A stretch of DNA of 64,000 nt from Cryomorphaceae bacterium. GTDB lineage: Bacteria > Bacteroidota > Bacteroidia > Flavobacteriales_D > Cryomorphaceae. Position numbers and translations under genes: made by a program. The DNA lies in contig PXBH01000059.1 in the NCBI GenBank assembly GCA_003565555.1, positions 1 through 64,000 of the forward strand, in the 5' to 3' direction. Positions 2,298 through 45,051 of this stretch are shown piece after piece. The notes under the pieces were generated by a model. That model ran no database searches and was not told where the DNA came from. It worked only from the letters and a program-made list of their open reading frames with translations. Numbering within the stretch: the stretch's first letter is position 1; each line of letters opens with the position of its first letter.

Positions 2298-3911
<1,614 letters not shown>

Positions 3912-4122: not shown

Positions 4123-4650
4123 ATGCGCCTTGTGAACGCTCCGCTTTCCTTACTCCGTCTTACGGGAACTGCATTGATTGCAGCGCTCCTCTCGTGCTGT
4201 ACGCCACCGCCGTCCGCCACGGTTACCAAAACTATGAAAGTGCGCGTCACCGCATACAATTCAGTATCTTGGCAAACCACTGCGACTGATCCTGACATCG
4301 CCGCCTGGGGTGATACCCTCAAGCCCGGCATGAAGGCTGTAGCCGTATCCCGAGACCTTATCCCGCTCGGGCTGAAGCACGGTACCGCCGTGCGCATCGA
4401 TGGCTTGGAAGGGGAGTACATCGTACTCGATAAGATGAACCGACGCTTCAAGCGCAGAATCGACCTCTATATGGGCACGGACGTGAAGGCCGCGCGGGAG
4501 TGGGGCGTGCGCAAGCTGGAGATAGCGTGGGAGGTAGAGCGCGACAGTCCCGCCGATCGGCGCTACATGTATTCGGGCGCCGATTCATCCGATGTCGCCG
4601 CCTTACGCCTGCCCGATGTCATCCGGTGCAACTTGCAAACATTTCATTAA
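4123..4650 (+). CDS. 3D (Asp-Asp-Asp) domain lipoprotein
   Basis: A 175-residue protein with a lipoprotein signal peptide; the lipobox LLSC places the lipidated cysteine at residue 25. The remainder is a 3D domain, the double-psi beta-barrel found in lytic transglycosylase MltA and in YuiC/Rpf2-like proteins: it starts KVRVTAYNS, has an early DTLKPGM, and ends in the typical IDLYMGTDVKAAREWGVRKL. The two aspartates of the family's core are visible in VLDK and IDLYMGTD. A cell-envelope role, perhaps binding or cleaving peptidoglycan, follows from the family. A near-consensus box TACCTTTC sits at 4102-4109, 13 bases before the ATG. No partner gene is evident. Confidence 0.8.
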   Translation: MRLVNAPLSLLRLTGTALIAALLSCCTPPPSATVTKTMKVRVTAYNSVSWQTTATDPDIAAWGDTLKPGMKAVAVSRDLIPLGLKHGTAVRIDGLEGEYIVLDKMNRRFKRRIDLYMGTDVKAAREWGVRKLEIAWEVERDSPADRRYMYSGADSSDVAALRLPDVIRCNLQTFH

Positions 4651-7617: not shown

Positions 7618-8691
7618 ATGGATACAGAGCGAGAAAAACATATCAAAGGCCGCGGAGCGCAGGTAAATACGCATAACCGTTTTGCCCGGCACAGCTACGA
7701 GCGTGTGCATGAGGAGGCACTCGATCTCCCGCCGGACAACGATGCGGGCCGCACCTCATTTATTCCCGTGCATCCGAAAACGATTGTGAACACCGTGAGG
7801 AGTCCGGATGTGGGCATGGTTTTCTCGATCAATCCCTACCAAGGATGCGAGCACGGGTGCGTGTACTGCTATGCCCGCAACTCCCACGAGTATTGGGGAT
7901 ACTCGGCGGGCAAAGACTTCGAAGAGAAAATCTTGGTGAAAGAGCGCGCCTCCGAACTCCTGCGCAAAAAGCTTTCTTCTCCTTCGTGGCGTCCCCGACC
8001 CATCGCCCTTTCGGGAAATACGGACTGCTATCAGCCCGTTGAAAAGAAGCTTGAGATCACCCGATCCTTGTTAGAGGTCTTTTCTGAATTCGGGCATCCC
8101 GTCGGGATCATCACGAAGAATGCCCTTGTACAGCGGGACCTCGATATCTTGGCACCGATGGCTGAGCGCAACCTCGTGAAGGTGGTACTTTCCGTGACCA
8201 CCTTGGATGAGAACCTGCGCCGAATTTTGGAGCCGCGCACGGCTTCGGTTGCCAAACGGCTCGAGACGATTGAGAAACTGTCTAAAGCGGGAATACCCTT
8301 GCAGGTGATGGTGGCGCCGATCATCCCCGGGCTCAACAGCAATGAGGTGCTGCCCGTGATTAAGGAAGCTGCGGCGCGGGGTGCCTTAAATGCCGGATAC
8401 ACCATGGTTCGGCTCAACGGTGCCGTTGCTGAGGTATTCGAAGAGTGGCTGCTTCGAACCATGCCTGACCGTGCGGCCAAGATCTTGCGGTACATTGCAG
8501 AAACCCACGGGGGCAAATTGGGGGACAGCCGCTTCAAAACAAGGATGAAAGGGGAAGGAAACTTTGCGGACGCCGTTCGGCAGAGTTTTCAAATCGCACG
8601 AAAGCGATATATGTCAGGCCGCAGCATGCCGGAATATGACTTTTCTCATTTTCGAAGGCCGCCCCGCGACGGGCAGCTATCCTTTTTCTGA
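7618..8691 (+). CDS. Radical SAM protein, PA0069 / spore photolyase-like family
   Basis: A 357-residue cytosolic protein with the [4Fe-4S] cluster motif C77-x3-C81-x2-C84 (GCEHGCVYC), preceded by the characteristic NPYQG. SAM-binding elements follow (SGNTDCYQP, then the PVGIITKN and VAPIIPGLN strands). This matches the PA0069 family of radical SAM enzymes related to spore photoproduct lyase. The substrate of the family is not settled, so none is assigned. An imperfect inverted repeat and a near-consensus box (TATCTTTA, 7573-7580) lie in the 63-base gap upstream. The gene is convergent with the subtilase gene, ending 9 bases from it. Confidence 0.85.
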   Translation: MDTEREKHIKGRGAQVNTHNRFARHSYERVHEEALDLPPDNDAGRTSFIPVHPKTIVNTVRSPDVGMVFSINPYQGCEHGCVYCYARNSHEYWGYSAGKDFEEKILVKERASELLRKKLSSPSWRPRPIALSGNTDCYQPVEKKLEITRSLLEVFSEFGHPVGIITKNALVQRDLDILAPMAERNLVKVVLSVTTLDENLRRILEPRTASVAKRLETIEKLSKAGIPLQVMVAPIIPGLNSNEVLPVIKEAAARGALNAGYTMVRLNGAVAEVFEEWLLRTMPDRAAKILRYIAETHGGKLGDSRFKTRMKGEGNFADAVRQSFQIARKRYMSGRSMPEYDFSHFRRPPRDGQLSFF

Positions 8692-8700
8692 TCCTCGGCC

Positions 8701-10293
8701 CTACTGCGCGGCAGTTTCAGCATTGATTCGTCCCCATCCGAATTCGCTGTCTCGGGTCGGGTAAAAGTTTGACGCCTCCTTCATCCGGTCGAACACTTCT
8801 TCGCGGGATTGGTTGAGGTCGGTGCTCCATACCAGTGCGGCGATTCCGGCGGCGGTGGCCGTTGCCACCGATGAGCCCCCCGTGTAGGTGGGTGCGATAC
8901 CCGAATTGGCCAAGGTAAGCGGACGTTTGCTTTCATCGTTTTGGTCTTCCATGGTCACGGCAAAGTCTACCTGTGAGCCGCTGTGGCAGCTTGTACACTT
9001 TTGCATATTGTTCAGGCTGCCTGTCTTGATGCCGGTTACGGCAATGGTATTGTTCAGGTTGGCAGGAAAAATAACGCCCACGAAAGTGGTCCAGCTAAAA
9101 GATGTTCCCGCGGCGCAGAAGATCATTTTTTCTTGGTTGTGCGCGTAGTTGACGGCATCGGTGATCTGACCGCTTGAAAACAGGTCACCGAGCGACATGG
9201 AGATAATATCCACATCTTCGCGGCTGCCCAGGTAGTAGTATGCGTCACTTACTCCGTTTTTCTCCGCAGAAGTGTTGTGTACCACATCCTCGGTGGCGCG
9301 AATGCTGATCATATTGCTTCTGAAGGCCACCCCGGAGGGTGCGCCGTCGCCGCTGAACGGACCGGCCAGTACACCGCCCATACTCGTACCGTGTCCGCAG
9401 AGGTCATACGGGCCGTCGTTTTCACAAAAGAAAAACCAGCTGCAGGGGGTGTGAAAGCCGAGGGTTTCGATGGTTCGGTTTCCCGAAAATCCGCCTGAAA
9501 ATTCATCGTTTAACTTTGCCTGATCAGGGGAATTGCCGGTGTCAATCAGTCCCACCGTCACCCCTGCACCGCGTGCTCCCGCTTTCCAGGCGCGCTGTAT
9601 CCGCATCGGGATGTAATTCCAGCTGAATGTGGCGCCCTGCGGAGCGGTGTGGAAGTGATCGGAAGGCACAAAGGGTGCCGGCATATTGCCGCCGCAGCCG
9701 CTGTCAGAGCGGTCACCGTAGTCGGGATCGATGCCGAAACCCATGGGTTCGCAGTATCGGGTCACGGTGAAGTTTCTCAGATGGGCCAGGGTCTCGTAAT
9801 CCCACACGCGAAGGTTGAGGTAGGGCAAAGGCTTCTCCCCGAAGGCCACCACATCCTCCGTGCGCCAATTGCGGTCGGGGTAGAGCCGTCGGTAGCGCTC
9901 GAGCACATAGTTGATGAGCCGTCTCCGCAAATTTTGCCATTCGCCGCTCCGCACATCAATCTCGTGGATGGCCTCGTCAAGGCCCGCAAAACCCGCCGGT
10001 TGATAGCCGAGTGAAATGATGCTGTCTGTGGCGATTACGGCGCTCCACACCGTGAAGTCGTCTGCCTCGCCCCAGTCGAAAACTCCGCGGCTCTCGATAA
10101 AGCTTTTGGTGCGACGTATCAGTTCGGATTTTTCCAACGGTTCGCGCCCGTTCAGGGGCTCGATTTCACGTTTCAGCTCAAGGGGCGGTTGGTTGGCGTC
10201 GGGATTCGCTTCGCGCGGGGGCAGGTCTTTTTGGCAGCCGGCCAGCAGAAGTACGGCAGCTGCAGCCGTGAAAATTTTGTGAAAAGCATTCAT
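8701..10293 (-). CDS. S8 family subtilisin-like serine protease, lipoprotein
   Basis: I start it at the ATG at 10293 (MNAFHKIF), which yields a lipoprotein signal with lipobox LLAGC; upstream in-frame residues are not signal-like. The catalytic triad of subtilases is complete: Asp251 in LIDTGN, His301 in CGHGT and Ser475 in GGSSVA. A propeptide-like region of about 220 residues precedes the catalytic domain, which ends at the C-terminus without an added sorting domain. It is expected to be anchored in the envelope and to cleave proteins in the periplasm or at the surface. Cysteine pairs around the His segment (CSWFFFCENDGPYDLC) and in CTSCHSG suggest disulfides. It is divergent from the TonB-type receptor gene. 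Confidence 0.88.
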   Translation of the reverse strand: MNAFHKIFTAAAAVLLLAGCQKDLPPREANPDANQPPLELKREIEPLNGREPLEKSELIRRTKSFIESRGVFDWGEADDFTVWSAVIATDSIISLGYQPAGFAGLDEAIHEIDVRSGEWQNLRRRLINYVLERYRRLYPDRNWRTEDVVAFGEKPLPYLNLRVWDYETLAHLRNFTVTRYCEPMGFGIDPDYGDRSDSGCGGNMPAPFVPSDHFHTAPQGATFSWNYIPMRIQRAWKAGARGAGVTVGLIDTGNSPDQAKLNDEFSGGFSGNRTIETLGFHTPCSWFFFCENDGPYDLCGHGTSMGGVLAGPFSGDGAPSGVAFRSNMISIRATEDVVHNTSAEKNGVSDAYYYLGSREDVDIISMSLGDLFSSGQITDAVNYAHNQEKMIFCAAGTSFSWTTFVGVIFPANLNNTIAVTGIKTGSLNNMQKCTSCHSGSQVDFAVTMEDQNDESKRPLTLANSGIAPTYTGGSSVATATAAGIAALVWSTDLNQSREEVFDRMKEASNFYPTRDSEFGWGRINAETAAQ

Positions 10294-30470: not shown

Positions 30471-31637
30471 ATGACTGCTGAAAACAAGATAAAGTCGGAC
30501 GCTTGGGTGCTTTATCAAGGCCCCGAAGAAGGCGGTGTCGGATCCTTGGTTCGGGAAGAATTTGAATTTTCCGGTATCTCAGATGGTGAGGTACTTACGG
30601 AACCTCTTTACGGATGCTGGGAAGGAAACATGAGCCATTCGATTGAACGAAAACCTATCGACATAGCACGACACAGGGGAGAAGAGAAGGTAGTCATCGG
30701 CAATGCCGGTGTGGTTCGAATCCTGGAAAAAGGGAAATCGGTCACCACCTGTGAGGTGGGAGATGTTTGCATTGTGTTTTGCGTGGGAAAAGTGGACAGA
30801 CGCGGCTACCCCGAAAAAATATTGGGGTACGATGCCCCGGGGACGATGGGCGTACTTTCGAAGAAGAGTAAAATGCCCGGACATTCGGTCATTCCCATCC
30901 CCGCAAACTCGAAGTACAGTTACGAACAGTGGGCCGCCTTTTCTTTAAGGTACGTCACCGCATGGTCCAACTGGAAAGCCGCATTGAGCTGCTGGAAGTC
31001 TCAAATGGACGGTGTAGATCCTTCACAAGAATATGTGCTCGCATGGGGTGGAGGTGTTTCCTACGCGGAGGCTCTTCTGGCTAAAAATGAAGGGTTTAAT
31101 GTGGTTATGGTGGCCTCGAGTGATGCCCGAATAGCAGCCCTTGAAGCCGACGGCATCACAGCCCTGGATCGACGGGAATTTTCGGATTTGAAATTCGACC
31201 CGGTCGCATACCGCAAAGATCCCGATTACAAGGCGCGGTACCTTGCCGCCGAAAAATTGTTTGTCGAAAAGGTCAGGGAATTCTCCCGTGAAAATAATAT
31301 CGCGATTCTGGTCGATTTTGTGGGCCTGCCCGTTTACCGTGCTTCTCTGAAAGTGCTGGCCAGACAAGGGGTCATCACCACTGCGGGGTGGAAAGACGGG
31401 ATGGTCTTGACAAATTTCAGGGCCATTGAGTGCATCAGCAGACATATACACGTTCACACCCATTACGCGCGGTATTCCGAAGGCTTGGAAGCCGTCGATT
31501 ACGCAGAAAAAAACGGCTGGATGCCGGACCTTTCTCGTGATAAAGTGTACGGTTTTGACGAAATTATGCAGGTGCATGAAGACTTCAATACCGGCAAGAT
31601 CGACACTTATTTTCCCATTTTCAGGGTGAACGATTGA
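30471..31637 (+). CDS. MDR-superfamily reductase, crotonyl-CoA reductase/carboxylase-like
   Basis: 388 residues of the medium-chain dehydrogenase/reductase superfamily. The nucleotide-binding loop reads AWGGGVSYAEALLAKNEG (about 190-207). The C-terminal part (HTHYARYSEGLEAVDYAEKN, then W.P.L......FDEI) lines up by eye with the C-terminus of crotonyl-CoA carboxylase/reductases, keeping a histidine at the place of the CO2-binding His but with Tyr and Asp where CCR has Phe and Glu. Zinc ligands of alcohol dehydrogenases are not seen. First gene of the polyketide operon, 143 bases before the synthase, which has no enoylreductase domain. It could make an alkylmalonyl-CoA extender or act as an enoyl reductase in trans. 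A near-consensus box TATTTTCG lies at 30419-30426; the leader is A-rich. Confidence 0.6.
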   Translation: MTAENKIKSDAWVLYQGPEEGGVGSLVREEFEFSGISDGEVLTEPLYGCWEGNMSHSIERKPIDIARHRGEEKVVIGNAGVVRILEKGKSVTTCEVGDVCIVFCVGKVDRRGYPEKILGYDAPGTMGVLSKKSKMPGHSVIPIPANSKYSYEQWAAFSLRYVTAWSNWKAALSCWKSQMDGVDPSQEYVLAWGGGVSYAEALLAKNEGFNVVMVASSDARIAALEADGITALDRREFSDLKFDPVAYRKDPDYKARYLAAEKLFVEKVREFSRENNIAILVDFVGLPVYRASLKVLARQGVITTAGWKDGMVLTNFRAIECISRHIHVHTHYARYSEGLEAVDYAEKNGWMPDLSRDKVYGFDEIMQVHEDFNTGKIDTYFPIFRVND

Positions 31638-31780: not shown

Positions 31781-34700
31781 ATGCCCCTTAAACAAGAGCC
31801 TCAATTCACCACGATAACTGAAGCGCTTTCGACCCACAGTCGAAAGCAGCCTGAGAAAACCGCTTTTCGATTCTTGATTGACGGCGAGGAGGAAGGCCCC
31901 GTGCTTTCCTATGCGCAACTTTACCGCGAAGCCGGGCGCATTGCTTTTACCTTGCTGAAAGATGTAAACCCGGGAGATCGTGTTGTATTGCTCTACCCGC
32001 AGGGCTTGGACTTCGTTTCTGCTTTATTCGGTTGTTTTTTGGCAGGCGTTATCGCTGTACCCGTTTTTCCGCCTGCCGGCCGGCGGCGCACGGAGCGGTT
32101 GGAGAATGTGTTGAAAGACAGCGATCCTGTCGCAATACTCGCTACGGCTCAGATCGAAAAATCTGTGAGTCGCCTGCTCAGCGAAAAGAATATCGAGAAA
32201 AAATATCTCCGGATCATCACTGATCAGCAGCTTGATGAAAGTGTAAACCTGACCGAACTTCCGGCAGCGGCACCGGACCATACCGCACTGCTTCAGTACA
32301 CTTCAGGTTCCACCGGAAATCCGAAAGGCGTTGAAGTAAGCCACGACAATCTCGTGCACAACAACCATGCACTTTACCTCGCGAGCGACGGACAACCCGA
32401 TACGGTATGCTGGCTGCCGGTATACCACGACATGGGGCTTATCGGCAATCTCATTTATGTGGTCTATTGCGGCGGCACTCTCACTTTGATGTCGCCCGCC
32501 GACTTTATTCGCAAGCCTGTACGTTGGTTCCGGGCGCTCACCAAGTACAAAGCGTCGGCTTCGGGATCACCCAATTTCGGATACGATTTGTGTACGCGCC
32601 ACATTTCGGATGAAGACCTTAAGGACATGGACCTCTCCGGTTTGATGGCCTCGGTCAACGGAGCGGAACCGATAAAACCCCGCACGGTCCGCAGATTCAA
32701 AGATAGATTTGCCAAAGCAGGTTTTCGCGAAGATGCTTTCATGCCCTGTTACGGTATGGCCGAGGCTACTGCGCTGATTTCGGGAACACGCGGCGAAGAT
32801 GCAGACCTTATTTTGGACGCGCAGGCGCTGGGCAATAAGAAGGTGGTGCCCGTGCGTGAGCATGAGCCGGGCATGACACGAACCGTTGCATCTTGCGGCA
32901 AGCCTGCAACAGGGATGCGCATTATTGCGGTCGATCCGGACACCGGCGTGGCCTGTCCGCCTGATACCGTGGGTGAATTATGGGTGCAGGGCCGCAGTGT
33001 GGCCAAGGGGTATTGGCGAAGGCAGGAGCTGACCGAAAGTGTTTTTCGCGCCGTGCTTAAAGAGGAAAGCGGCCGCTTACGCGAAGAAGAAGGATTCTTT
33101 TTGCGAACCGGTGATATGGGCTTTCTGCGCGAAGGCTCGGTCTATATTACCGGTCGCTTGAAAGAAATGTTTGTTATCAACGGCGCCAACGTTTTTCCGC
33201 AGGATATCGAACGCAGCATTCAGGAAGACAATCCGGTGCTGCAGGAAAATGCAGGAGCCGTATTTGCGGTGGATTCCGAAGAAGGCCAAGACGACGTGAT
33301 TGTCATGCAAGAAATTGCAAGATCTAAGCTGAAGGATTGTAACCCGAGGGCCGAAATACGTAAAATTGTTGACCGGGTATTGGCCATTCATGAGATATCC
33401 CTTTCGGGCGTCTTTTTGCTTGCGCCCGGAGCTTTGCCCAAAACAACGAGCGGAAAAATCAGACGCCTGAAATGTGCAGAACTGTACATTTCGGGTCAGA
33501 TTCCCGGAATAACAGATCATTTGCTGCTCAATAAACGAGCGATTAAAAATCCATTTGATATGAGTGAAAACAGTCTTAGCGCGGATGCTCCGAAGGTTCC
33601 CGCTTTCGAATTGATTACGGAGGCCTTGGCTTATCATGCCGAGCATAGCCCCGATCAAACGGCTTATCGATTTTTGGAGGACGGAGAGACCGTCAAGGCT
33701 ACGCTCACTTACCGCGAGCTATACGAAGCTTCCCGAAAGCTGGCCGCTAAGATCGCCGAAACTGCGGCCCCGGGTGACCGCGCCATGCTTGTGTTTCCCT
33801 CCGGTCTCGATTTCCCGACGGCGTTTTTTGCCTGTCTCTATGCAGGCGTCATAGCGGTTCCTATGTATTTGCCTTCCGGAAAAAGAAGGTTAGGCAGGTT
33901 CAAAACAGTGTCGCAGGATTGCGCCCCTGTTTTGGCCATCGGCGAGTCCTCCAGCTCAGAAAAGGCCAAAGAGTGGTTTGCGGAAACGGAAGTTTTGAGT
34001 GATCTCAAATGGATTGATGCGGACCGAATGGGGGAGGACACTCAGATTTCGCTGCCGACCCCGGAGCCACAGCATACAGCGTTTCTCCAGTACACCAGCG
34101 GCAGTACCGGGGATCCGAAAGGGGTAGAGGTGTCCCACGCCAATATCGTACACAACAACCGCCTTTCCATGTTGTCAACACGGACTGCGCGAAATTATGT
34201 GAGCTGGCTTCCGATTTACCACGACATGGGCCTCATCGGCAAGATTTTGGCAAATGTCTACGGCGGAGAAACACTCACCTTCATGGCGCCGGTCGATTTC
34301 ATTACCAAGCCTGTGCGTTGGTTACGCGCGCTTTCGGAATACGGAGGGCAGACTTCGGCTGCTCCTAACTTTGCCTTTGACCATTGTGTCAAGTACATTT
34401 CTGATAAGGAGATGGAAGGCGTTGACCTCTCCGGCTGGAAGGCGGCAAGCAACGGTGCGGAGCCGATCAAGGCATCCACGATCAGAAAATTTACGGAGCG
34501 CTTCGGAAAATACGGTTTTCAACCCTCTACCTTCATGCCTTGCTACGGGATGGCTGAGACTACGCTGATCGTGAGCGGAACGGCCGGTGTGATTGAAATT
34601 ATCCGGGCGGATAAAAAATCTCTCCTCGACGGCAAAATTGCAGAGGTATCAGGTTCGGAGGAAGAAGCCTCCGAGCTGGTCGGAAGCGGTCCCGTCCTCG

Positions 34701-37700
34701 GCGGATTCACCGTGGTCATCGTGGACCCGGAAACCAAGCACGCATGCCCGCCCGATTCGATCGGTGAGATCTGGGTGCAAGGCCCGAGCGTGACCAAAGG
34801 CTATTGGCAGCGGCCCCAATTGACAGAAGAGATTTTCAGGGCCCAAATCGAAGGTGAGGAGGAGCGCGGACACTTCCTCCGCACGGGCGACTTGGGTTTT
34901 TTGCGCAAAAACAACCTCTTCGTCACCGGACGGCTCAAAGAATTGATCATTATCAACGGGGCAAATATCTATCCTCAAGATGTGGAGCGTTCTATTCAGG
35001 AGGAAGATCCCGTACTCCAAGAGAATGCGGGCGCTGTGTTCAGCGTGGAGTCCGAATCCGGCATGGATGAGGTGGTGGTTTTCCAAGAAATCTCCCGTCA
35101 GCACGTGCGTGACTTCAATGCAGAGGAAGTCATTGACAATATTATAAAACGCGTTATTGCCAACCACGAAATCCCTGTGCTTGCAGTTTTCCTGATCAGT
35201 CCGGGCAGGCTGCCCAAAACCACGAGCGGCAAAATCCAGCGCATGAAATGCCGGGCGGAATACCTCGCGGGCAATCCTCAGGGTGTTTTGGCATCCAGAG
35301 ACCGCTCCGCACTGAAAAGTGCGAAAGATGAAGGCAAACGCAAAGCTTCCGAAGAAACCCCCGCATCAGATTCGGCCTTGAGAAAAGAGCTGAGCGATCG
35401 GATCGTTAACGAAATCGCAGAGCTTACGGAAGTTCCCGAATCTGCTGTAGATGTGAATACCTCTTTTGCCTCTCTGGGAGTGTCATCCATTCAGGGAATT
35501 CAGCTTGCCGAACGCCTCGGAAGGTTTCTCGGGCGTAGGGTGGAGACCACGGATCTGTACAATTACAGCACCGTCAATGAGCTGGTGAATCATTTAACTG
35601 CTGAAACCGCCGAAACAAAAGCAGAGGAGCCGCGTGCTTCCGCAAACGATTCCGGAGCGACAGTCGGCGATGAGCCCGTAGCGGTGATCGGCATTTCGTG
35701 CCGCTTTCCGGGTGCCGACGATTTATCCGCTTTTGAAAAACTGATCAGCAAGGGAGAGGACGGAATAACCGAGGTGCCCGAAGACCGCTGGAATTGGAGC
35801 GAATACTATGATACCGCCGGAGGCCCCGGTAAAATGGTCACGAAGTGGGGCGGCTTTATCAGCAACCACGACAAGTTTGACCCGCAATTCTTCGAAATTT
35901 CCCCCAGAGAGGCAGTGCTCATGGATCCTCAACAGCGGATACTTCTGGAAGAAACGTACAAACTTTTTGAATCTTCAGGCTATCCTTCCGCACAGCTTCG
36001 CGGAAAGGATGTCGGTGTATTCATCGGCATTGCCGGCAGTGACTATACGGGTAGGGTGCTTCAGCATTCAGATGAGAGAAACATATATACCGCCACGGGA
36101 AGCTCCTACAGCATTGCTGCCAACAGACTTTCCTATTTCTACAACTTTACCGGTCCGAGCGTATCCGTTGATACGGCCTGCTCATCTTCTCTTGTGGCAC
36201 TGGGCCAAGCGGTAAAAGCACTTCGCGACGGTGACTGCCCCATGGCCGTGGCGGGCGGTATTAACCTCATTCTTTCTCCCGAAGGCACCCTCAGCTTTTC
36301 GCAAAGCGGACTCATGGCCGCCGACGGACGGTGCAAAACTTTCGATGCTGCCGCAGACGGTATCGTGCGCAGCGACGGCTGCGGCGTAGTCTTGCTGAAG
36401 CCGCTTTCTGCTGCTTTGAAAGACGGTGATCGAATACACGCCGTAATCCGCGGCGTCGGGGTCAATCAAGACGGAAGAAGCAACGGGCTCACTGCGCCCA
36501 ACGGTCTTTCTCAGGAGGCCTGCATCAGAAAAGCGCTCAAAGATGCAAAACTGAATCCCCGCGAAGTGAACTTTGTGGAAGCCCACGGTACGGGCACCAT
36601 CTTGGGTGATCCGATCGAGGTGAACGCACTGCACGCGGTATACGGGTCGGGCCGAAAAGATCCGCTGTACGTGGGTTCGGTGAAAGCCAATATCGGTCAT
36701 ACCGAGGCGGCTGCGGGAATCGCCGGATTCATCAAGGCTGTGCTCGCGGTGAAAAACAGAGCGCTTCCCGTTCAGGCCAATTACAATGCACCGAATCCCC
36801 AAATCGATTGGGACAACATTGCCGTAAGGGTGCTGCGGGAAGTCAAGAAATTTAACCCCGGAGGTCCGCCGCTGCGGGCCGGTGTAAGCTCCTTCGGATT
36901 CGGAGGAACCAACGCCCATATTATTTTGGAGTCGGCGCCGGAAATCGATGAACAGGCGGAAGAAACGCAAAATGCTGCACGCTCCGTTCAAATTTTGCCC
37001 GTTTCGGCCAAGGACGCGCCCACACTGCGCCGCAAGCTCACTGAACTGGACCGTTTCTTAGAGCGAAACAGCACGGTGACTTTAGATGACCTTGCCTTCA
37101 CCCTTTTTTCCGGAAGGGACCATTTCAACCACAGGACCGCACTGATCGGCAAAAATGCAGAAGACCTCAGAAAGGGAATTGCTGATGCGCGGGAAGGAGA
37201 AGAATCACTTTACTCCTTTTCAGACCTCGCGGTGAAGGGCAAGAAAGTGCATGCTTTTTTCTTTACGGGTGCAGGTCCGCAGTACCCCGGAATGGGGAAG
37301 CACCTCTATGAGACAGAGCCCGTTTTTCGCACACACCTGGATCGATGCGCCGAAATAGCTTCGGAATACATGGAGAAAGACCTTCGCGAGGTCATCTTCT
37401 GCACCCCGGGATCAGAGGAGCATAAACTTCTCGATAGGATCGACTACATGCAGCCCGCAGTATTTGCTTTTGAATATGCCCTTTATAAATGGTGGGAGCA
37501 TCTCGGCGTCACTGCCGATATTGTGATCGGTCACAGCCTCGGTGAACTCGCGGCAGCCTGCATCGCGGGCGTATTTGATCTCGAATCGGCAGTGAAGCTT
37601 ACCGTGAAGCGGGGGGAGCTGATCTACAAGATGCCTGTCCCCGGGACCATGGCCTCCGTGCAGGCGAGCGAGAAAGAGGTGCGCGATGTGATCAAAGACC

Positions 37701-40700
37701 GAAAGGACGTATCTGTGGCCGTGCTGAACAGCAAGACGCAGACCGTGGTTTCCGGCGAGACGGAAGGCGTGGACTTTGTCGTAAAACACTTTGATGCTGC
37801 AGGACGCAAGACCAAGGTGCTCAACATCAGCAGGGCCGGCCACTCTCCGCTGATGGATGCCATATCCGATGAATTCCGCAAAGTAGCGGAAAGCTTTGAG
37901 ATGGCACCCGCACGCATACCGCTGGTCAGCAATGTGACCGGAAAAACAGCGGGTGACGACATTGCAACTGCAGAATATTGGGTGAACCACCTCAGGCAGC
38001 CCGTTCGATTCGCAGACGGTTTGCAGACGGTGAGTGATTTCGGCGCAAATTTGCTGATCGAAGTGGGGCCGAACCCTGTACTTCTCGGCATTTCGCGTCA
38101 GGCGGGACTCCCCGGAGAGGGAACGGTACACATCGCCTCGGCAAGTGAGGATGACAAAGACGGCACTGCACTTTACACCGCATTGGCAAAGTACTACGCC
38201 GCCGGCGGGGATATCAATCCCGAAGCTTTCCTTGCAGGACGGCCGGGAAGCTTTACAGATGCTCCGCTTTATCCCTTTACGGGAAAAAGGTTGATGGTCG
38301 AGGCTTCTGCCCGGACGGAAGCTTCCGGCGAAGCCACGGGAATGCCCCTTCTCGGGCGTGCCGTGAAGGTGGCGGGGCTCTACGGTGTATTTGAATCTGC
38401 CGTGAGTCAGGAAACCGTACCCTATCTGCGTGACCACCGCATTATTGACTCCGTGATTGCACCTGGCTCTTTCCATATTGAACTCCTCCTCGAGTTTGCG
38501 GCTTACGCCAAAAAAGATTTGATGATCCGCGAACTCTCCATTCAGCGGCCGCTTTTTGCGGATGAAACCGCACCGCGAAGAGTTCAGGTCATCGCAGAAG
38601 AGCAGGAGCTGAGCGATGCGCTAAAGGTGAGTGTGTTCAGTACGGATGCCTTAGGTGCAGACTGGACCTTGCACGTAGCGGCTACGATGCAGAAGCGCTC
38701 CGGCGAATTACCCCCGTCTGCAGACCTCGGGAAATTGTCCGATGCGCATACGGAGGCCGTGGATGTCGCGCAATTTTACCGCGATCTCGCGGAAATCGGG
38801 TTTCATTACGGACCGAGTTTTCAGGGCGTGAAAGTACTGAAGCGCGGAGCATCTTCCGTATATGCCGAGTTGGAGATTGCTCCCGAGGGGCAAGATGCAG
38901 CAGAGGCTGCAGGAGCACAACTCCACCCCGCACTGCTCGATGCGGCCTTCCAAATGCTGGCCGGCCTCTCCGCGGGGACTGAGCAGAAAGAGACTTACTT
39001 GCCCTTTGCGGTAGAAAACCTCGAAGTGACCGTGCCTCATCTTACCCGTTGTAAAGGTGTGCTCAAGGTACATGACCGCGAACCGGATTCGGAGATCATG
39101 CGCTGCGATATCACCCTGTACACCGAGGAGGGAGATTTTGCCGGAAGGCTGGACTTCAGTTGCAAAAAAGCCTCACCGGAGCAAATCACGGCGGGAGGCT
39201 CGCGCCTGCGCACCGACTGGATGTATGATGCCCGCTGGTCTGAACCTACCGGAGTCCCGCCCGAAGAAGTGCGGCCCGAAAATATGCTTCTGCTCTGTCA
39301 CGATGATATCGCCGCCGATTACGAAGGCTTTTTGATGGAGATTAAATCGCGCGGAATTCCACATACCGTGGTGAGCGATTGGGGCCAAGCCAACGCCATG
39401 ATGTTCAACACAGACTATGACGCCCTGACCGTACTTTGGGGAAATCCCGAGGGAGAGGGTTCTGTGGCCGAGCAATCTCGGCAATGGGCCCTGGACGGGC
39501 TGAAGATGCTCCAAGACCTGATATCGACAGGAGCGGCAAAAGGGCCGAAATTTCTGAAGAAAATATACTGGGTTACCGAGGGCTTTGCTTCCGGAGCGAC
39601 CGATCTGCGATCGGCACCGCTCTGGGGATTGGGACGCACTTTCGTCAAGGAAACCGATTTTGATCTTAAGCTCATCGATATTGACCGCAAATCCTACAGC
39701 ACTGAGCACTTGGCGGAAACCATCTTTTCCCTCGGTACAGAGAGCCAAGTGCGTCTGACAGGTAAGAAGGCGGAAGTACTGCGACTTGAAAAGCACCGCG
39801 CAACCGAGGCAGGTCAAAAGACCTTTACCTCGCGTGCCACTTGGATCATTACCGGCGGAACGGGAGATCTGGGATTGCAGGCCGCACGTGCCGTGGCGAC
39901 CCGTACGGATGTGGCGCGTATTGAGCTTTGGGCCCGGCGTGAACCTTCTGAAGAAGTGAAGGCTTTCGCGGCCGAAGCTGAAGCGCTCGGCACTTCCGTC
40001 GTAGTGCGCAGTGTGGACGTGGCCGATGCGGATGCGGTAAGCCAAGCTGTGGCCTCCGTGCCCGCTGAATTTCCCGTGAAGGGTGTGCTCCACATCGCCG
40101 GTGTCGCCGAAGATGCCCGTATTCCCGAGCAGAATGAGGATACTTTTGATAAGGTATTGAATCCAAAAATACGCGGCGCGTGGAATTTGCACCGGGCCAC
40201 TGAGGGTGCAGACCTTGAGGCTTTTGTACTTTACAGTTCCCTGTCGGCACTTGCCGGAGTGCCCGGTGTGGCAAATTACGCCGCTGCCAATACCTTCTTG
40301 GATGCCTTGGCACGGTACCGTCGCGAACACGGCTTGGCCGGACATTCCCTGAATTGGGGTGCCTGGGCCACGGCCACAGGACTCCTTGACGCTTCGCGTG
40401 CAGATGACTTCAGGAAATACATGCGTGCACGCGGTGTGGACTTGATCGACGGAGATTCAGGAACAGACATATTGATTTACAGCTTGATGAGCGGATCGCT
40501 GCCATCGCAGGTATTCGTAGCGCCGCTTATTTTGGAAAGTGCTTCTCCTTTTGAGTTGCCTTCCGGCGAAATACAGCCCCTCTACAGAAAACTGTTGGGA
40601 GGAGATGCCACGGATAGTGAAGCGGCGGCTGCAAAGTCTAACCTCCGCGCCGAGCTTTTCAAAGCTGATCCCGAAGAACGCCGCGCACTTTTGGCATCCG

Positions 40701-41197
40701 CTGTCAAGAAGCAGGTGGGCCTTGTGGTACGCCACGAAAATCCGGAAGCTATAGATCCTGACGCAGATATCTTCTCCCTCGGCGTTGACTCCCTGATGGC
40801 GGCCGAAATGGTTTCAAGACTCTCTAAAATGATCAAAGAGCCGTTGGCACCCACCATTCTCTTTGATCAGCGAACAGTGAATGAGCTGACCTCTTTCCTC
40901 TTGGAGGTAACCATAGATTTCTCAGCGGAAGAGCAGGGGCTTACCGAGGATCCCGAAGAGGATGTAAAAGCGGCAGCGCCGCGTGAAGCCGCTGCGGCTC
41001 CGCAAGGGGCATCCGTCCCGAAGGAGGCTCCGACCGACAACGGAGCACTTCAGCGGGAGGATTGGGAGCGCAAGCTCAAAGCCCTGCTTGCGGAAGAGCT
41101 GAAGGCCCTCGGTAAAAACCCTGATGCCCTGGAGGAAAGCCGAATCCTTCGACGAAACATTGCAAAACTCGCGGCATCATTGAAAAAGCGTTTATAA
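31781..41197 (+). CDS. Polyketide synthase with tandem fatty acyl-AMP ligases: FAAL-FAAL-ACP-KS-AT-DH-KR-ACP
   Basis: 3138 residues, one uninterrupted frame. FAAL1 (about 15-580) and FAAL2 (about 605-1165) both hold YTSGSTG.PKG, GRLKE..(I/V)INGAN..PQD and the lysine in PKTTSGKI, so both look able to make acyl-AMP. ACP1 carries Ser1236 (LGVSSIQ). KS (from 1298) has Cys1467, His1602, His1640. AT has GHSLGE (Ser1919) and the specificity box RAGH (2018-2021). DH has His2219 and Asp2387 (LLDAAFQ) with GFHYGPSFQG, though the Gly of HxxxGxxxxP is Asp. KR has GGTGDLG (about 2692), Ser2820, Tyr2833, Asn2837. ACP2 carries Ser3004 (LGVDSLM). The tail of about 90 residues ends in a charged helix that may be a docking element. 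There is no ER, methyltransferase or thioesterase domain; a reductase gene precedes and a thioesterase gene follows. Expected chemistry: load a fatty acid, extend with a malonyl-type unit, reduce and dehydrate. Whether it iterates is unknown. Confidence 0.93.
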   Translation: MPLKQEPQFTTITEALSTHSRKQPEKTAFRFLIDGEEEGPVLSYAQLYREAGRIAFTLLKDVNPGDRVVLLYPQGLDFVSALFGCFLAGVIAVPVFPPAGRRRTERLENVLKDSDPVAILATAQIEKSVSRLLSEKNIEKKYLRIITDQQLDESVNLTELPAAAPDHTALLQYTSGSTGNPKGVEVSHDNLVHNNHALYLASDGQPDTVCWLPVYHDMGLIGNLIYVVYCGGTLTLMSPADFIRKPVRWFRALTKYKASASGSPNFGYDLCTRHISDEDLKDMDLSGLMASVNGAEPIKPRTVRRFKDRFAKAGFREDAFMPCYGMAEATALISGTRGEDADLILDAQALGNKKVVPVREHEPGMTRTVASCGKPATGMRIIAVDPDTGVACPPDTVGELWVQGRSVAKGYWRRQELTESVFRAVLKEESGRLREEEGFFLRTGDMGFLREGSVYITGRLKEMFVINGANVFPQDIERSIQEDNPVLQENAGAVFAVDSEEGQDDVIVMQEIARSKLKDCNPRAEIRKIVDRVLAIHEISLSGVFLLAPGALPKTTSGKIRRLKCAELYISGQIPGITDHLLLNKRAIKNPFDMSENSLSADAPKVPAFELITEALAYHAEHSPDQTAYRFLEDGETVKATLTYRELYEASRKLAAKIAETAAPGDRAMLVFPSGLDFPTAFFACLYAGVIAVPMYLPSGKRRLGRFKTVSQDCAPVLAIGESSSSEKAKEWFAETEVLSDLKWIDADRMGEDTQISLPTPEPQHTAFLQYTSGSTGDPKGVEVSHANIVHNNRLSMLSTRTARNYVSWLPIYHDMGLIGKILANVYGGETLTFMAPVDFITKPVRWLRALSEYGGQTSAAPNFAFDHCVKYISDKEMEGVDLSGWKAASNGAEPIKASTIRKFTERFGKYGFQPSTFMPCYGMAETTLIVSGTAGVIEIIRADKKSLLDGKIAEVSGSEEEASELVGSGPVLGGFTVVIVDPETKHACPPDSIGEIWVQGPSVTKGYWQRPQLTEEIFRAQIEGEEERGHFLRTGDLGFLRKNNLFVTGRLKELIIINGANIYPQDVERSIQEEDPVLQENAGAVFSVESESGMDEVVVFQEISRQHVRDFNAEEVIDNIIKRVIANHEIPVLAVFLISPGRLPKTTSGKIQRMKCRAEYLAGNPQGVLASRDRSALKSAKDEGKRKASEETPASDSALRKELSDRIVNEIAELTEVPESAVDVNTSFASLGVSSIQGIQLAERLGRFLGRRVETTDLYNYSTVNELVNHLTAETAETKAEEPRASANDSGATVGDEPVAVIGISCRFPGADDLSAFEKLISKGEDGITEVPEDRWNWSEYYDTAGGPGKMVTKWGGFISNHDKFDPQFFEISPREAVLMDPQQRILLEETYKLFESSGYPSAQLRGKDVGVFIGIAGSDYTGRVLQHSDERNIYTATGSSYSIAANRLSYFYNFTGPSVSVDTACSSSLVALGQAVKALRDGDCPMAVAGGINLILSPEGTLSFSQSGLMAADGRCKTFDAAADGIVRSDGCGVVLLKPLSAALKDGDRIHAVIRGVGVNQDGRSNGLTAPNGLSQEACIRKALKDAKLNPREVNFVEAHGTGTILGDPIEVNALHAVYGSGRKDPLYVGSVKANIGHTEAAAGIAGFIKAVLAVKNRALPVQANYNAPNPQIDWDNIAVRVLREVKKFNPGGPPLRAGVSSFGFGGTNAHIILESAPEIDEQAEETQNAARSVQILPVSAKDAPTLRRKLTELDRFLERNSTVTLDDLAFTLFSGRDHFNHRTALIGKNAEDLRKGIADAREGEESLYSFSDLAVKGKKVHAFFFTGAGPQYPGMGKHLYETEPVFRTHLDRCAEIASEYMEKDLREVIFCTPGSEEHKLLDRIDYMQPAVFAFEYALYKWWEHLGVTADIVIGHSLGELAAACIAGVFDLESAVKLTVKRGELIYKMPVPGTMASVQASEKEVRDVIKDRKDVSVAVLNSKTQTVVSGETEGVDFVVKHFDAAGRKTKVLNISRAGHSPLMDAISDEFRKVAESFEMAPARIPLVSNVTGKTAGDDIATAEYWVNHLRQPVRFADGLQTVSDFGANLLIEVGPNPVLLGISRQAGLPGEGTVHIASASEDDKDGTALYTALAKYYAAGGDINPEAFLAGRPGSFTDAPLYPFTGKRLMVEASARTEASGEATGMPLLGRAVKVAGLYGVFESAVSQETVPYLRDHRIIDSVIAPGSFHIELLLEFAAYAKKDLMIRELSIQRPLFADETAPRRVQVIAEEQELSDALKVSVFSTDALGADWTLHVAATMQKRSGELPPSADLGKLSDAHTEAVDVAQFYRDLAEIGFHYGPSFQGVKVLKRGASSVYAELEIAPEGQDAAEAAGAQLHPALLDAAFQMLAGLSAGTEQKETYLPFAVENLEVTVPHLTRCKGVLKVHDREPDSEIMRCDITLYTEEGDFAGRLDFSCKKASPEQITAGGSRLRTDWMYDARWSEPTGVPPEEVRPENMLLLCHDDIAADYEGFLMEIKSRGIPHTVVSDWGQANAMMFNTDYDALTVLWGNPEGEGSVAEQSRQWALDGLKMLQDLISTGAAKGPKFLKKIYWVTEGFASGATDLRSAPLWGLGRTFVKETDFDLKLIDIDRKSYSTEHLAETIFSLGTESQVRLTGKKAEVLRLEKHRATEAGQKTFTSRATWIITGGTGDLGLQAARAVATRTDVARIELWARREPSEEVKAFAAEAEALGTSVVVRSVDVADADAVSQAVASVPAEFPVKGVLHIAGVAEDARIPEQNEDTFDKVLNPKIRGAWNLHRATEGADLEAFVLYSSLSALAGVPGVANYAAANTFLDALARYRREHGLAGHSLNWGAWATATGLLDASRADDFRKYMRARGVDLIDGDSGTDILIYSLMSGSLPSQVFVAPLILESASPFELPSGEIQPLYRKLLGGDATDSEAAAAKSNLRAELFKADPEERRALLASAVKKQVGLVVRHENPEAIDPDADIFSLGVDSLMAAEMVSRLSKMIKEPLAPTILFDQRTVNELTSFLLEVTIDFSAEEQGLTEDPEEDVKAAAPREAAAAPQGASVPKEAPTDNGALQREDWERKLKALLAEELKALGKNPDALEESRILRRNIAKLAASLKKRL

Positions 41198-41223: not shown

Positions 41224-41940
41224 ATGGAAAATACTGTAGTTGCTATACCCTTCGCGGGAGGAGATCGGTACGCTTATCGCGCGCTGATTGCCGCCGCCCC
41301 CGCGGATTGGAAGTGGATGGTATTGGACCTGCCCGGGAGGGGACCGCGAGGAAAGGAGCCCCGACTGCGCAATATTGCCCTGATGGCAGACGCGCTCTTC
41401 GCTGATTTTCGTGCGGATGTACCCGTCGGACCTTATATCTTGCTGGGCCACAGCATGGGCGCCATTCTGGCCTTTGAACTCCTGTGGCGCATCAGAGCCG
41501 CCGACTTGCCCATGCCCGCTGCCGCTCATTTTTCGAGCATGGCAGCGCCGAACGTGGTTCGGAACAAAGCGGTATCGCACCTTCCGTCCGATGAATTTTG
41601 GGAAGCCATGAAAACCTACGACGGTGTTCCGACGGGTATTTTGGCCAATGAAGCTTTAAGAAATTACTTCGAGCCGATTCTCAGAGACGATTTCGCGGCA
41701 GCTGAGGTGTACTTCCGTGAGGCCGGAGAAGAGCCGCCTTTTGATCTGCCGTTTTTTATTTCGGCGGGGGAGGAGGAGGATATTCCGGAGGCGAACCTCA
41801 TGAAATGGCAGGATTTTTCCGCAAAGCCCATTTCTGTGGAGCGCCCTCCGGGTCGGCATTTTTTTCTTTTGAAGCAGCCTGAAAATGCGGTGGCCCGGAT
41901 TGCAGGGACTTTCGATTCGAACTGTAAATCGCAGCGGTGA
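41224..41940 (+). CDS. Type II thioesterase
   Basis: 238 residues of the alpha/beta-hydrolase GrsT/TEII family. The first strand and oxyanion region read AIPFAGGDRYAYRAL, the nucleophile is Ser77 in GHSMG, and the catalytic histidine is His212 in GRHFFLL; the acid is probably in the SAGEEED loop. Such enzymes clear stalled acyl groups from carrier proteins, or release the product when the synthase has no thioesterase of its own, as here. It begins 26 bases after the synthase, and its TGA overlaps the GTG of the next gene (GTGA). Confidence 0.87.
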   Translation: MENTVVAIPFAGGDRYAYRALIAAAPADWKWMVLDLPGRGPRGKEPRLRNIALMADALFADFRADVPVGPYILLGHSMGAILAFELLWRIRAADLPMPAAAHFSSMAAPNVVRNKAVSHLPSDEFWEAMKTYDGVPTGILANEALRNYFEPILRDDFAAAEVYFREAGEEPPFDLPFFISAGEEEDIPEANLMKWQDFSAKPISVERPPGRHFFLLKQPENAVARIAGTFDSNCKSQR

Positions 41941-42593
41941 TTGCCCTTCTTTATACGAATTTGGTCGGGAAATTTGACAGTTGCGATCCCGACGTTATAC
42001 GCGGCTTGTTGCCTCCCGAGTTGGGCCGGTTAGCCGAGAAATACCGCCGCCCCGACGATCAAATACGTAGCTTGGCCTCTAAGTACCTCCTGTTAAAGGC
42101 TCTTGAACTTTTCGGCATATCCGGTCCCTACCGCTACATTGCAGAAACCGCAAGATCAAAACCCATTTTGGAGGGGGTGACCGATTTCTCATTTAATATT
42201 ACGCACAGTGCGAATATTGTGATTTGTGCCGCATCTGACGGTGCGGAGTTGGGGGTCGATGCGGAGCAGGTACGCCCCGCTCCTGATATTGTTCATCGCG
42301 GGGTGTTTACACAAAATGAGCTGGAACTATTGCAGCGTGATGCAAACGATCCGCAGGCCTACCTGCGGCTGTGGACACGCAAAGAGGCACTCTCGAAAGC
42401 CGACGGCAGGGGTATGCGCCTTCAATTTCGAGAAACCGATGCGACGGAAAATTCAGTCGAGGTCGGGGACATGCGCTACGCAATAGTTGATATACATGGG
42501 CTGCCTGACGGATACGTCGGTGCGCTCGCATATGCGCAGGGTGAAGCTGCGGTCGACATTGAGCTTCGGGAAGTGCCGATTCCCTCAATTTAG
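41937..42593 (+). CDS. Sfp-type 4'-phosphopantetheinyl transferase
   Basis: 218 residues. It attaches the phosphopantetheine arm of CoA to carrier-protein serines; the two ACPs of the neighbouring synthase are the evident targets. The family motifs are in order: FNITHSANIV, LGVDAEQV (metal-binding Asp/Glu), and WTRKEALSKADGRGM. The start is GTG overlapping the thioesterase stop. The last 9 bases overlap the end of the convergent SGNH gene. A dedicated transferase within the operon means the pathway does not depend on a transferase elsewhere. Confidence 0.92.
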   Translation: MIALLYTNLVGKFDSCDPDVIRGLLPPELGRLAEKYRRPDDQIRSLASKYLLLKALELFGISGPYRYIAETARSKPILEGVTDFSFNITHSANIVICAASDGAELGVDAEQVRPAPDIVHRGVFTQNELELLQRDANDPQAYLRLWTRKEALSKADGRGMRLQFRETDATENSVEVGDMRYAIVDIHGLPDGYVGALAYAQGEAAVDIELREVPIPSI

Positions 42594-43679
42594 GGTTCTG
42601 CTTCCGTCTTGGCGAATGCCGGTCAGTGCTTCAAAATCCTTCGCAAAAGCGGAAGAGAAAATGCGGGCACCCTTGGCACTGAAGTGCGTCGGATCCTTGT
42701 AGTAATCGAGTTCCGTGGGAAAATCCGAATAGTCGAGGTAGTACGCATTTTCATGTGCATCGGCGAGGTCGGTAGCAAACCTTACGAATTCGTCAAAATT
42801 CGGGAGACTTTCCTTCAGCAGCGGATTGGTCGGGACGGTGACCAGTATAAACTTTCGTTGCTTTGAGCCCCGCAGGTAGCCTTCAAACTCTTCGAGATAG
42901 GCGGTGTCCACAGAGAAGTATACCATGGCGTTGATGGAGTTCAGGGCGTATTCATCTTCCGGGCTGAACACCTTGTTCGGATCGTCGAATTTATCCTGAA
43001 GCTCTATACGACGGCTGTTGAGGTTAGCCAAGCGTTGCACAAAGATTTCTACATCTTTTTCGGACTGGCTTTTTTCTTCCAGCATTACGCCTCGATTGTC
43101 GCGCTTGTCGCCCCGGAGTCTTCGCAGGGGGCCTACGGCATAATTGAAATAATTGCCGTAATACCTCATCCCCGGCACCGTGTAATGGGCATTGAATACC
43201 CCGCTTTCGCGCATGAAGTTTTCAATAACCTCATGGTGCAGCAAGGGGATGAAGGTCGATGAGTTGATCGTTGTTTCGGGATTTCTGATGAAGGTGCGCG
43301 GATTGATTTCAAAGATGATCGGAGCATCTTTGTCTTTTTCGCATTCTACCTTCATCAGCACCCGGGTTACATCGAAGAGGGCCTTGCCCATTCCGTAATT
43401 GAAACAATCCGGGCTGATGGAATCGGGCGTAAATGAGCTTCGGGCCACCGAGGCTCCGAATACGGGGATTTCGTTCGGATTGGGATCATCGAGCAGGCGC
43501 TTGACTTTGCTCTGATTCGACCAGGAATTCGCAAAAATGATGTACCGGTCGAAGATATAATCCGCTCCGAGGAGAAAAATTACGAGCACCGCGGCAAGCG
43601 GCCAAAGTTTCTTGACCAGCAGCTTCGGAGTAACTTCGTCGTTCTCAGAATTGGAAATATATAAATTGCTGATTCGCAT
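42585..43679 (-). CDS. Membrane-anchored SGNH hydrolase-like protein (MBOAT partner)
   Basis: 364 residues: a cytosolic N-terminus, one transmembrane helix (about 27-46), and an extracytoplasmic SGNH-like domain. The block I position reads VFGASVARSSF (GAS where classic members have GDS) and the C-terminal DPTHFSAKG provides the Asp-x-x-His pair. This is the plan of proteins paired with MBOAT acyltransferases in acetylation of alginate, peptidoglycan or teichoic acid (AlgJ/AlgX, PatB, DltD). It starts 35 bases inside the MBOAT gene on the same strand. The acceptor is unknown. Confidence 0.78.
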   Translation of the reverse strand: MRISNLYISNSENDEVTPKLLVKKLWPLAAVLVIFLLGADYIFDRYIIFANSWSNQSKVKRLLDDPNPNEIPVFGASVARSSFTPDSISPDCFNYGMGKALFDVTRVLMKVECEKDKDAPIIFEINPRTFIRNPETTINSSTFIPLLHHEVIENFMRESGVFNAHYTVPGMRYYGNYFNYAVGPLRRLRGDKRDNRGVMLEEKSQSEKDVEIFVQRLANLNSRRIELQDKFDDPNKVFSPEDEYALNSINAMVYFSVDTAYLEEFEGYLRGSKQRKFILVTVPTNPLLKESLPNFDEFVRFATDLADAHENAYYLDYSDFPTELDYYKDPTHFSAKGARIFSSAFAKDFEALTGIRQDGSRTLN

Positions 43680-45051
43680 CTTCTCCGAGCATTAGGATTA
43701 AGAAAAGCATGACGGCCAGATAGACCAAGTTGTTTTTGAATTTCAATTCACGGTTAAACCATGTGGTAGGGATGAGGATCAGGCAGAGCAAGACAAGAAT
43801 ATAGAAATTTGAGCCCCCGCCGAATCCCGCAGTTACGTCACTTGGATTCCAAGACCAATCCGTAAAAATCTTTCCGTAGCCGGTAAAGACGTCATCCAAA
43901 GATTGGGCGCGAAAAAACAAGGTGCTGAGACAAATCAATACCATATTCCACAAGGGAACAAGGGCATTTCTGTATATCTTATTCTGTATGCGCGGAATAG
44001 ATCGCATGATCTCAATATGCCCCTGAATCCCCATGATCACACCGTGATAGACGCCGAAAAGGATGAAGGTCCAATTGGGGCCGTGCCAAAACCCGATCGT
44101 TGCGAGCACCAGTACATTAATCCAAAACCGTTTTTGATTGCTCGGATTATTGCCGAGAAGGGGGTACTGCATATAGATGAAAATCCACTGGGTCAAGGAC
44201 ATGTGCCACCGGCTCCAGAAATCCCTGAAACTTTTCACCCAGTAAGGCCGGTTGAAATTTTCTATCAGGTTAATGCCGAGCAGGCGTGCCGAGCCGATCG
44301 CGATATCGGTGTATCCGCTGAAGTCGCAGAAGATCTGCACGCCGAAGAAAATGAGGGCTACAAAGACCTGCATGCCGTTTGAAACGGAAAGATCGATGAA
44401 GACATAATCGACGAAAACGCCCACATTGTCCGCAATGACGAGCTTTTTAAAAAAGCCCAGTACTATCTTGTTCAGGCCGTAACGGACATCTTGGAGCTTG
44501 AGGTTGGCTCCCTTTTTCAACTGGGGTATCAGGTGTGAACTACGTTCAATCGGACCGGCGATCAGCTGAGGGAAAAAAGATACGTAAAGGGCGAAGTAAC
44601 CGAAGTTGCGCTCGGGCTTGATGCTGCCGTTGTACAGGTCTATGGAGTAGCTCAGCGTCTGGAAGGTGTAAAATGAAATACCGAGCGGGAGCAGTACATA
44701 GTGCGTCACGGGCGGAAAGGGTGCGCCTAAGAGCGTGGCAGCCTCGTGTATATTGAGGCTGAAGAAGTTGAAGTATTTGAAATAGAAAAGAATCCCGAGA
44801 TTTGAGCAACAGCTCAAGATCAGGTAGGGGAGCCGTTCCCTTTTGGTTTTGAACTTGCTCATTTGGAGTCCGGCCCAGAAATCGATCGTGGTGCTTCCCA
44901 AGAGCAGTAAAGCGTACACAGGCTTCCACGACATGTAGAAGTAGTAGCTTCCCGCCAAAAGCAATAACCACCTCCAATTCCTGTTGAGTGCAAAATAGAG
45001 CACCAACACAACAGGAAAAAATATGATGAATTCCAGCGAATTAAATAGCAT
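43645..45051 (-). CDS. MBOAT family O-acyltransferase
   Basis: 468 residues with about 11 transmembrane helices, from FNSLEFIIFFPVVLVLYFAL onwards. The catalytic histidine is in GFWHGPNWTF, and conserved FFPQLIAGPIERSS and NFNRPYWVKSFRDFWSRWH are the AlgI/PatA/DltB hallmarks. It moves an acyl group across the inner membrane for attachment to an extracytoplasmic acceptor by the downstream SGNH partner. It has its own promoter (45224-45254) and a leader of about 165 bases. Its closeness to the polyketide operon is suggestive only. Confidence 0.9.
   Translation of the reverse strand: MLFNSLEFIIFFPVVLVLYFALNRNWRWLLLLAGSYYFYMSWKPVYALLLLGSTTIDFWAGLQMSKFKTKRERLPYLILSCCSNLGILFYFKYFNFFSLNIHEAATLLGAPFPPVTHYVLLPLGISFYTFQTLSYSIDLYNGSIKPERNFGYFALYVSFFPQLIAGPIERSSHLIPQLKKGANLKLQDVRYGLNKIVLGFFKKLVIADNVGVFVDYVFIDLSVSNGMQVFVALIFFGVQIFCDFSGYTDIAIGSARLLGINLIENFNRPYWVKSFRDFWSRWHMSLTQWIFIYMQYPLLGNNPSNQKRFWINVLVLATIGFWHGPNWTFILFGVYHGVIMGIQGHIEIMRSIPRIQNKIYRNALVPLWNMVLICLSTLFFRAQSLDDVFTGYGKIFTDWSWNPSDVTAGFGGGSNFYILVLLCLILIPTTWFNRELKFKNNLVYLAVMLFLILMLGEDANQQFIYFQF

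Follow-up and report, generated by a model that had tools for sequence, protein, structure and literature searches.

A type I polyketide synthase with two tandem fatty acyl-AMP ligase domains ahead of one loading carrier in a Cryomorphaceae bacterium

In mycobacteria, the fatty acyl-AMP ligase (FAAL) FadD32 primes the N-terminal ACP of Pks13, a polyketide synthase (PKS) that performs a one-step condensation. In cyanobacteria, the olefin synthase is a FAAL-loaded KS-AT-KR-ACP protein that also carries a sulfotransferase and a thioesterase for decarboxylation (PMC11837247). Two FAAL-like domains in one protein are known from eukaryotic DIP2, in which a DMAP1-binding domain is followed by FLD1 and FLD2, each about 16% identical to bacterial FAALs, and which acts in diacylglycerol metabolism without an ACP or a PKS (PMC9342972, PMC8460268). 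DIP2 was the sole published tandem in the literature that we searched. We found there no description of tandem FAALs in a bacterial PKS and no occurrence of "FAAL-FAAL" or "two FAAL domains", and the word tandem is absent from a 2025 review of bacterial FAALs.

On an assembly line, choice of the starter unit is normally left to a single gatekeeper. Here we describe a PKS in which this gatekeeper has been naturally duplicated in frame, encoded in a 64,000-nucleotide stretch of a Cryomorphaceae genome (Bacteroidota, Flavobacteriales; contig PXBH01000059.1, hereafter the window), and compare it with the same locus in two congeners.

Architecture of the PKS and its operon

The PKS gene (31781–41197, plus strand) encodes 3138 aa without an internal stop, and Pfam placed its domains in the order FAAL1-FAAL2-ACP-KS-AT-DH-KR-ACP, with two AMP-binding domains (1.4e-137), two DIP2-like AMP C-terminal domains, two PP-binding domains, KS, AT, DH (as two halves), and KR. 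FAAL1 (31802–33520, aa 8–580) and FAAL2 (33599–35320, aa 607–1180) are both Pfam AMP-binding domains with complete FAAL and catalytic residues, and they are joined by a linker (33521–33598, about aa 581–606). The loading carrier ACP1 (35396–35596, aa 1206–1272; PF00550) has its serine in GVSSI. It is followed by the KS with a C-terminal extension (35672–37138, aa 1298–1786; PF00109, PF02801, PF16197; DTACSSS, EAHGTGT, NIGHTE), the AT (37256–38110, aa 1826–2110; PF00698), the DH (38345–39136, aa 2189–2452; PF21089, PF14765; HRIIDSVIAPG, DAAFQ), the KR (39836–40369, aa 2686–2863; PF08659; GGTGDLG, YAAAN), and ACP2 (40739–40900, about aa 2987–3040; PF00550), whose serine lies in GVDSL. All of these features are on the plus strand. 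The active-site residues were in place, namely the KS Cys/His/His, the AT GHSxG, the KR Y..N, the DH His and Asp, and both ACP serines. Because the Gly of the DH motif HxxxGxxxxP is replaced by Asp, DH activity is likely but not certain. A FAAL, an ACP and a KS-AT module with their active-site residues kept thus occur in a single protein, as in FAAL-loaded type I PKSs, but since two FAALs serve one loading ACP we regard this PKS as a variant rather than a typical member of that kind.

In the predicted structure of the FAAL1-FAAL2 segment (mean pLDDT 80, pTM 0.50), there were two folded domains, and the linker was unstructured, with pLDDT <50 at model positions 573–598 (protein aa 580–605). The model therefore suits beads on a string better than a rigid didomain.

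A free-standing thioesterase gene (41224–41940, plus strand; PF00975, 2e-30; GHSMG) begins 27 bp past the PKS gene and overlaps by 4 bp a gene for a 4'-phosphopantetheinyl transferase (PPTase; 41937–42593, plus strand; PF01648, 3e-13). From this spacing, the PKS, thioesterase and PPTase genes look like one operon. The thioesterase is absent from the locus in both congeners, and a PPTase gene was found there in 3/3 congeners by synteny. Upstream, a gene for a distant crotonyl-CoA carboxylase/reductase (CCR)-like protein (MDR; 30471–31637) ends about 144 bp before the PKS gene on the same plus strand; it matched TIGR01751 at 8.8e-16, far below the cut-off, and 3krt at 5.6e-07. A search of 39 related genomes, the two congeners among them, gave no counterpart of this gene (E ≤ 1e-15). 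Its product may act in trans as an enoyl reductase or may supply the PKS with alkylmalonyl-CoA. The specificity motif of the AT is RAGH, not HAFH or YASH, and may be tied to ethylmalonyl-type ATs, although an AGH motif was not listed in a review. Both this motif and the CCR-like gene next door suggest that the PKS may use a branched extender.

Origin and occurrence of the tandem

We read the same locus, with MnmA/GT2 and P167/EttA genes at its sides, in two congeners, of which L005/G001 is the closer (MBOAT and MnmA both 80% identical, versus 71% and 69% for G002). At this locus L005/G001 encodes a 1354-aa FAAL1-FAAL2-ACP protein with a PPTase gene directly after it, and none of the KS, AT, DH, KR, second ACP, thioesterase and CCR-like gene is present there. 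No KS-AT module was found elsewhere in this assembly, which is 81% complete. Identity to the L005 counterpart is 60% for FAAL1 and 55% for FAAL2, with all key residues kept; because both copies are conserved in this way, both appear to be under purifying selection, even in a species that lacks the PKS module. G002 has a single FAAL on an ACP-KS-AT... protein that is cut by the contig end (its FAAL is 58% identical to FAAL2 and its KS 55% to that of the window), and its last carrier lies on another contig, adjoining a PPTase gene. Single, double and PKS-less forms at one locus in one genus offer a ready comparison for the evolution of starter choice, and make the role of a second starter ligase directly testable.

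Two further features of L005 were observed. MnmA and a GT1 glycosyltransferase share one 760-aa frame (2117–4399), while they are separate genes in the window. Past its ACP, the FAAL-FAAL-ACP protein continues with low-complexity sequence and finishes with an amphipathic-looking GLLARIASLFNRKD tail (8570–8783), which may form a helix for docking or membrane binding.

The five FAALs of the genus formed one clade (100/99) in the tree, and the tandem therefore arose by in-frame duplication within the lineage; a fusion of two unrelated ligases was rejected on the same ground. An AU test did not separate a duplication before the G002 split from one after it (AU 0.46). FAAL1 and FAAL2 are 50% identical in protein, and their DNA is similar only locally (67% over 509 nt), so they are not an assembly duplicate. 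An assembly artefact was rejected on this divergence and on the same fused pair in the independent genome L005/G001. The preliminary description, which had read a single FAAL-FAAL-ACP-KS-AT-DH-KR-ACP frame, is borne out by the Pfam order, the lack of internal stops and this second fused pair.

Outside the window genome (G000) and G001, no fused FAAL pair was found among 100 relatives or in samples from the order (399 genomes), the class (395) and the phylum (395), about 1,300 genomes in total; the samples overlap in part, and two candidates per genome were scored in the order, class and phylum searches. Plasmid matches were rejected as tandems: the 30 matches listed span about 1.7–1.9 kb and are single FAALs, each matched by both halves of the query. 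A candidate in G249 was also rejected, being two separate neighbouring genes. One more distant case was a deltaproteobacterial NRPS (L006 729–11183) with the order FAAL-FAAL-FAAL-ACP-C-A-PCP-C. Its three FAAL-like domains are 66% and 48–56% identical to each other, and the third has a ~75-residue insertion. In the tree the first and second are nearest to each other; tandem FAALs therefore originated separately there, and the arrangement recurs in bacteria. Of the suggested novelty, the part that stands is that a tandem in a bacterial PKS was not found in the literature searched; the arrangement itself is not unique, given L005/G001 and L006. Other FAAL fusions seen in Bacteroidota were FAAL-ACP-aminotransferase (L085, L088) and a FAAL with a male-sterility-type reductase domain (L031).

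Active sites and divergence of the two ligases

The closest solved structures of both domains were FAALs (7r7e, E = 6.6e-131 for FAAL1; 7r7f, E = 7.2e-141 for FAAL2), and the Synechococcus olefin synthase FAAL (7R7E) was the top match of both, at 41–42% identity. The motifs reported at first sight were confirmed in each copy: YTSGSTG at aa 173 and 771, GRLKE at 458 and 1050, and the A10 lysine motif KTTSGK at 554 and 1146. When 39 FAALs were aligned with the 7R7E sequence and four further ANL proteins, FAAL1 and FAAL2 kept the A3, A5, A7, A8 and A10 residues, the equivalents of EcFAAL W224, P226, M231 and F279 at exact spacing, and the segment of the FAAL-specific helix (FSH) up to P259 (EcFAAL numbering). 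The CoA-pocket-blocking residues W224/M231/F279 and the FAAL-specific helix are the features by which FAALs reject CoA (EcFAAL numbering; PMC8460268), and the non-FAAL ANL proteins of the same genome and family lacked this residue set. The A5–A7 region, the site of the FAAL-specific insertion, is long in both copies (118 residues in FAAL1 and 112 in FAAL2, with 111 in 7R7E, versus 70–85 in non-FAAL ligases), so the insertion for which a check had been proposed is present in both. The possibility that one domain is a CoA ligase was rejected on these diagnostic residues and the insertion. Neither copy departed from the columns conserved in at least 95% of the aligned FAALs. By sequence, both copies are apparently active FAALs.

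One position bears on whether both copies transfer acyl chains to ACP1. The residue matching EcFAAL P107, where the phosphopantetheine tunnel opens, is Leu in FAAL2 and Val in the FAAL2 of L005. Bulky P107 mutants of EcFAAL adenylate but do not transfer to ACP (PMC8460268), and the missing proline could weaken transfer from FAAL2. This substitution in both species, together with the single ACP after the two FAALs, favours a division of labour in which one copy no longer loads ACP1 and instead has a structural or dimerising role or passes acyl-AMP to another acceptor, leaving a single primer. We nevertheless consider this doubtful, since Leu, Ile, Tyr or Phe also occur at the P107 site in other FAALs, including single ones, and since neither FAAL1 nor FAAL2 lacks a catalytic or 95%-conserved residue. 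The earlier suggestion that one copy had lost its function was thus not upheld, although FAAL2 has Leu at this site.

The two copies have diverged unequally. Relative to the outgroup state, there were 15 derived fixed sites in FAAL1 and 5 in FAAL2/G002 (p = 0.04), which by sequence makes FAAL1 the derived, diverged copy and FAAL2 the ancestral-type copy. The derived sites of FAAL1 include Ala267Gly, beside the F279 equivalent, and Leu331Ala, three residues past the A5 Glu, at what we take to be GrsA specificity position 330 of adenylation domains. The olefin synthase FAAL of Synechococcus has been crystallised as an A229I/R336A variant with palmitoyl-AMP and as R336A with stearoyl-AMP (7R7F/7R7G). 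The site of A229 is Gly232 in FAAL1 and Glu830 in FAAL2; FAAL2 alone among the aligned FAALs has Glu there, and the L005 FAAL2 has Ser. Specificity is not fixed by one pocket residue. Because this chain-length site is Gly in FAAL1 but Glu in FAAL2, and FAAL1 has diverged, the two domains probably favour different acyl chains, and the initial proposal that they select different fatty acids fits both the asymmetric divergence and the pocket changes.

Our preferred reading, to which we give a probability of roughly 0.45, is that a FAAL-primed type I PKS with a single extension step underwent an in-frame duplication of its loading ligase, and that both FAALs load ACP1 with different chains. Each FAAL would turn a free fatty acid into acyl-AMP and then charge the phosphopantetheine arm of ACP1 with it; FAAL2 would do so in cis, and FAAL1 across the flexible linker or in trans within a PKS dimer, such that two kinds of free fatty acid would compete for ACP1 through two ligases. 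The FAAL1 pocket would be the wider, and the FAAL2 site would be constricted or polar in this species. The KS would then elongate the loaded chain of either kind by one malonyl or alkylmalonyl unit, the KR and DH would reduce the product to an enoyl chain, and the chain would be released by the thioesterase or handed over to a separate acyltransferase. Two different fatty acids may thereby prime one assembly line, a possible part for mixed-starter lipids.

The single FAAL of G002 is a counterpoint to any need for two. That one FAAL suffices there, that the catalytic residues of FAAL1 and FAAL2 are identical, and that FAALs often accept a wide range of chain lengths (PMC11837247) would all suit a redundant duplication, in which both domains accept the same acids and the extra copy raises the loading rate or persists neutrally. 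Decay would be the expected fate of a redundant copy, however, and the 50% identity, the asymmetric divergence and the fixed pocket changes kept in two species make redundancy rather unlikely.

Dlt-like neighbours and comparison with known systems

Convergent with the PKS operon are two genes on the minus strand. The first (42585–43679) encodes a DltD-like SGNH protein with an N-terminal membrane helix and invariant Ser77 and His332; its ten best Foldseek matches were all DltD (E 5.4e-05 to 6.7e-04), but with low TM-scores of 0.33–0.40. The second (43645–45051) encodes an MBOAT acyltransferase (PF03062), which by sequence is homologous to DltB (TIGR04091 DltB at 6e-40, far below the equivalog cut-off; PDB DltB at 2e-26).

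Such neighbours suggest another fate for the chain on ACP1, which, whether extended by the PKS or not, could pass to the DltB-like MBOAT and the DltD-like protein and acylate a surface glycan or lipid. This export route concerns chain fate and can hold alongside our preferred reading. It would agree with the adjoining DltB-like and DltD-like genes in all three congeners, with the loss of the PKS module in L005, where FAAL-FAAL-ACP, PPTase, DltD-like and DltB-like genes were kept and would be its minimal form, and with the ACP and MBOAT that come next after the FAAL in distant Bacteroidota. Adjacency is weak evidence here, because synteny within the genus extends to all the flanking genes, and the DltB/DltD-like pair lies outside the PKS operon. 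A link to the PKS is possible but weak, because other genera have related pairs in exopolysaccharide loci: the MBOAT is 45–49% identical to MBOATs of such loci without a FAAL, versus 31–41% to those found with a FAAL and an ACP. We therefore consider export by this route unlikely. The broader idea that the tandem FAAL-ACP is a two-substrate loading unit, working also independently of a PKS and feeding DltB/DltD-like surface decoration as a fatty-acyl counterpart of Dlt in Bacteroidota, seems quite improbable.

A cassette was seen in a distant Bacteroidota FAAL clade, where an ACP (GWDSL) and an MBOAT gene directly followed the FAAL in 20/20 members examined (drawn from L042–L054, L056–L062, L084, L089–L092; e.g. 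L084 2557–7838), with a GDSL/SGNH gene neighbouring upstream in the 2 loci checked. By gene content this cassette is Dlt-like, its ligase being a fatty-acyl one. No mention of an MBOAT and a FAAL together was found in the literature searched, and the cassette merits separate study. In one member (G249; L084 4329–7838) the FAAL is duplicated in tandem as two separate 574-aa genes ahead of a single ACP and a single MBOAT, a parallel to the fused pair in the window.

Compared with the Dlt system (DltA-DltC-DltB-DltD), the locus by gene content likewise has an adenylating ligase, a carrier, an MBOAT and a DltD-like protein side by side; the ligase is a fatty-acyl FAAL rather than D-alanyl DltA, the carrier is inside a PKS, and the MBOAT/DltD-like pair forms a convergent, separate operon on the opposite strand. 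DIP2 shares the two FAAL-like domains in tandem, while the window PKS has ACP and PKS domains and, by Pfam, no DMAP1-binding domain. The L006 NRPS also has tandem FAALs ahead of one carrier, but in three copies, in an NRPS context and from an independent duplication. Within the genus, the L005/G001 protein has the same fused FAAL pair and ACP at the same locus without KS, AT, DH, KR or second ACP, and the G002 PKS has the same locus and neighbours with a single FAAL and no thioesterase or CCR-like gene alongside. FadD32/Pks13 resembles the window PKS in the FAAL priming of a single-step condensing PKS, but the mycobacterial FAAL is a separate protein and Pks13 lacks DH and KR. The olefin synthase is likewise a FAAL-loaded single-module PKS, with one FAAL and a sulfotransferase, whereas the window PKS has two FAALs and a DH, and its thioesterase is free-standing.
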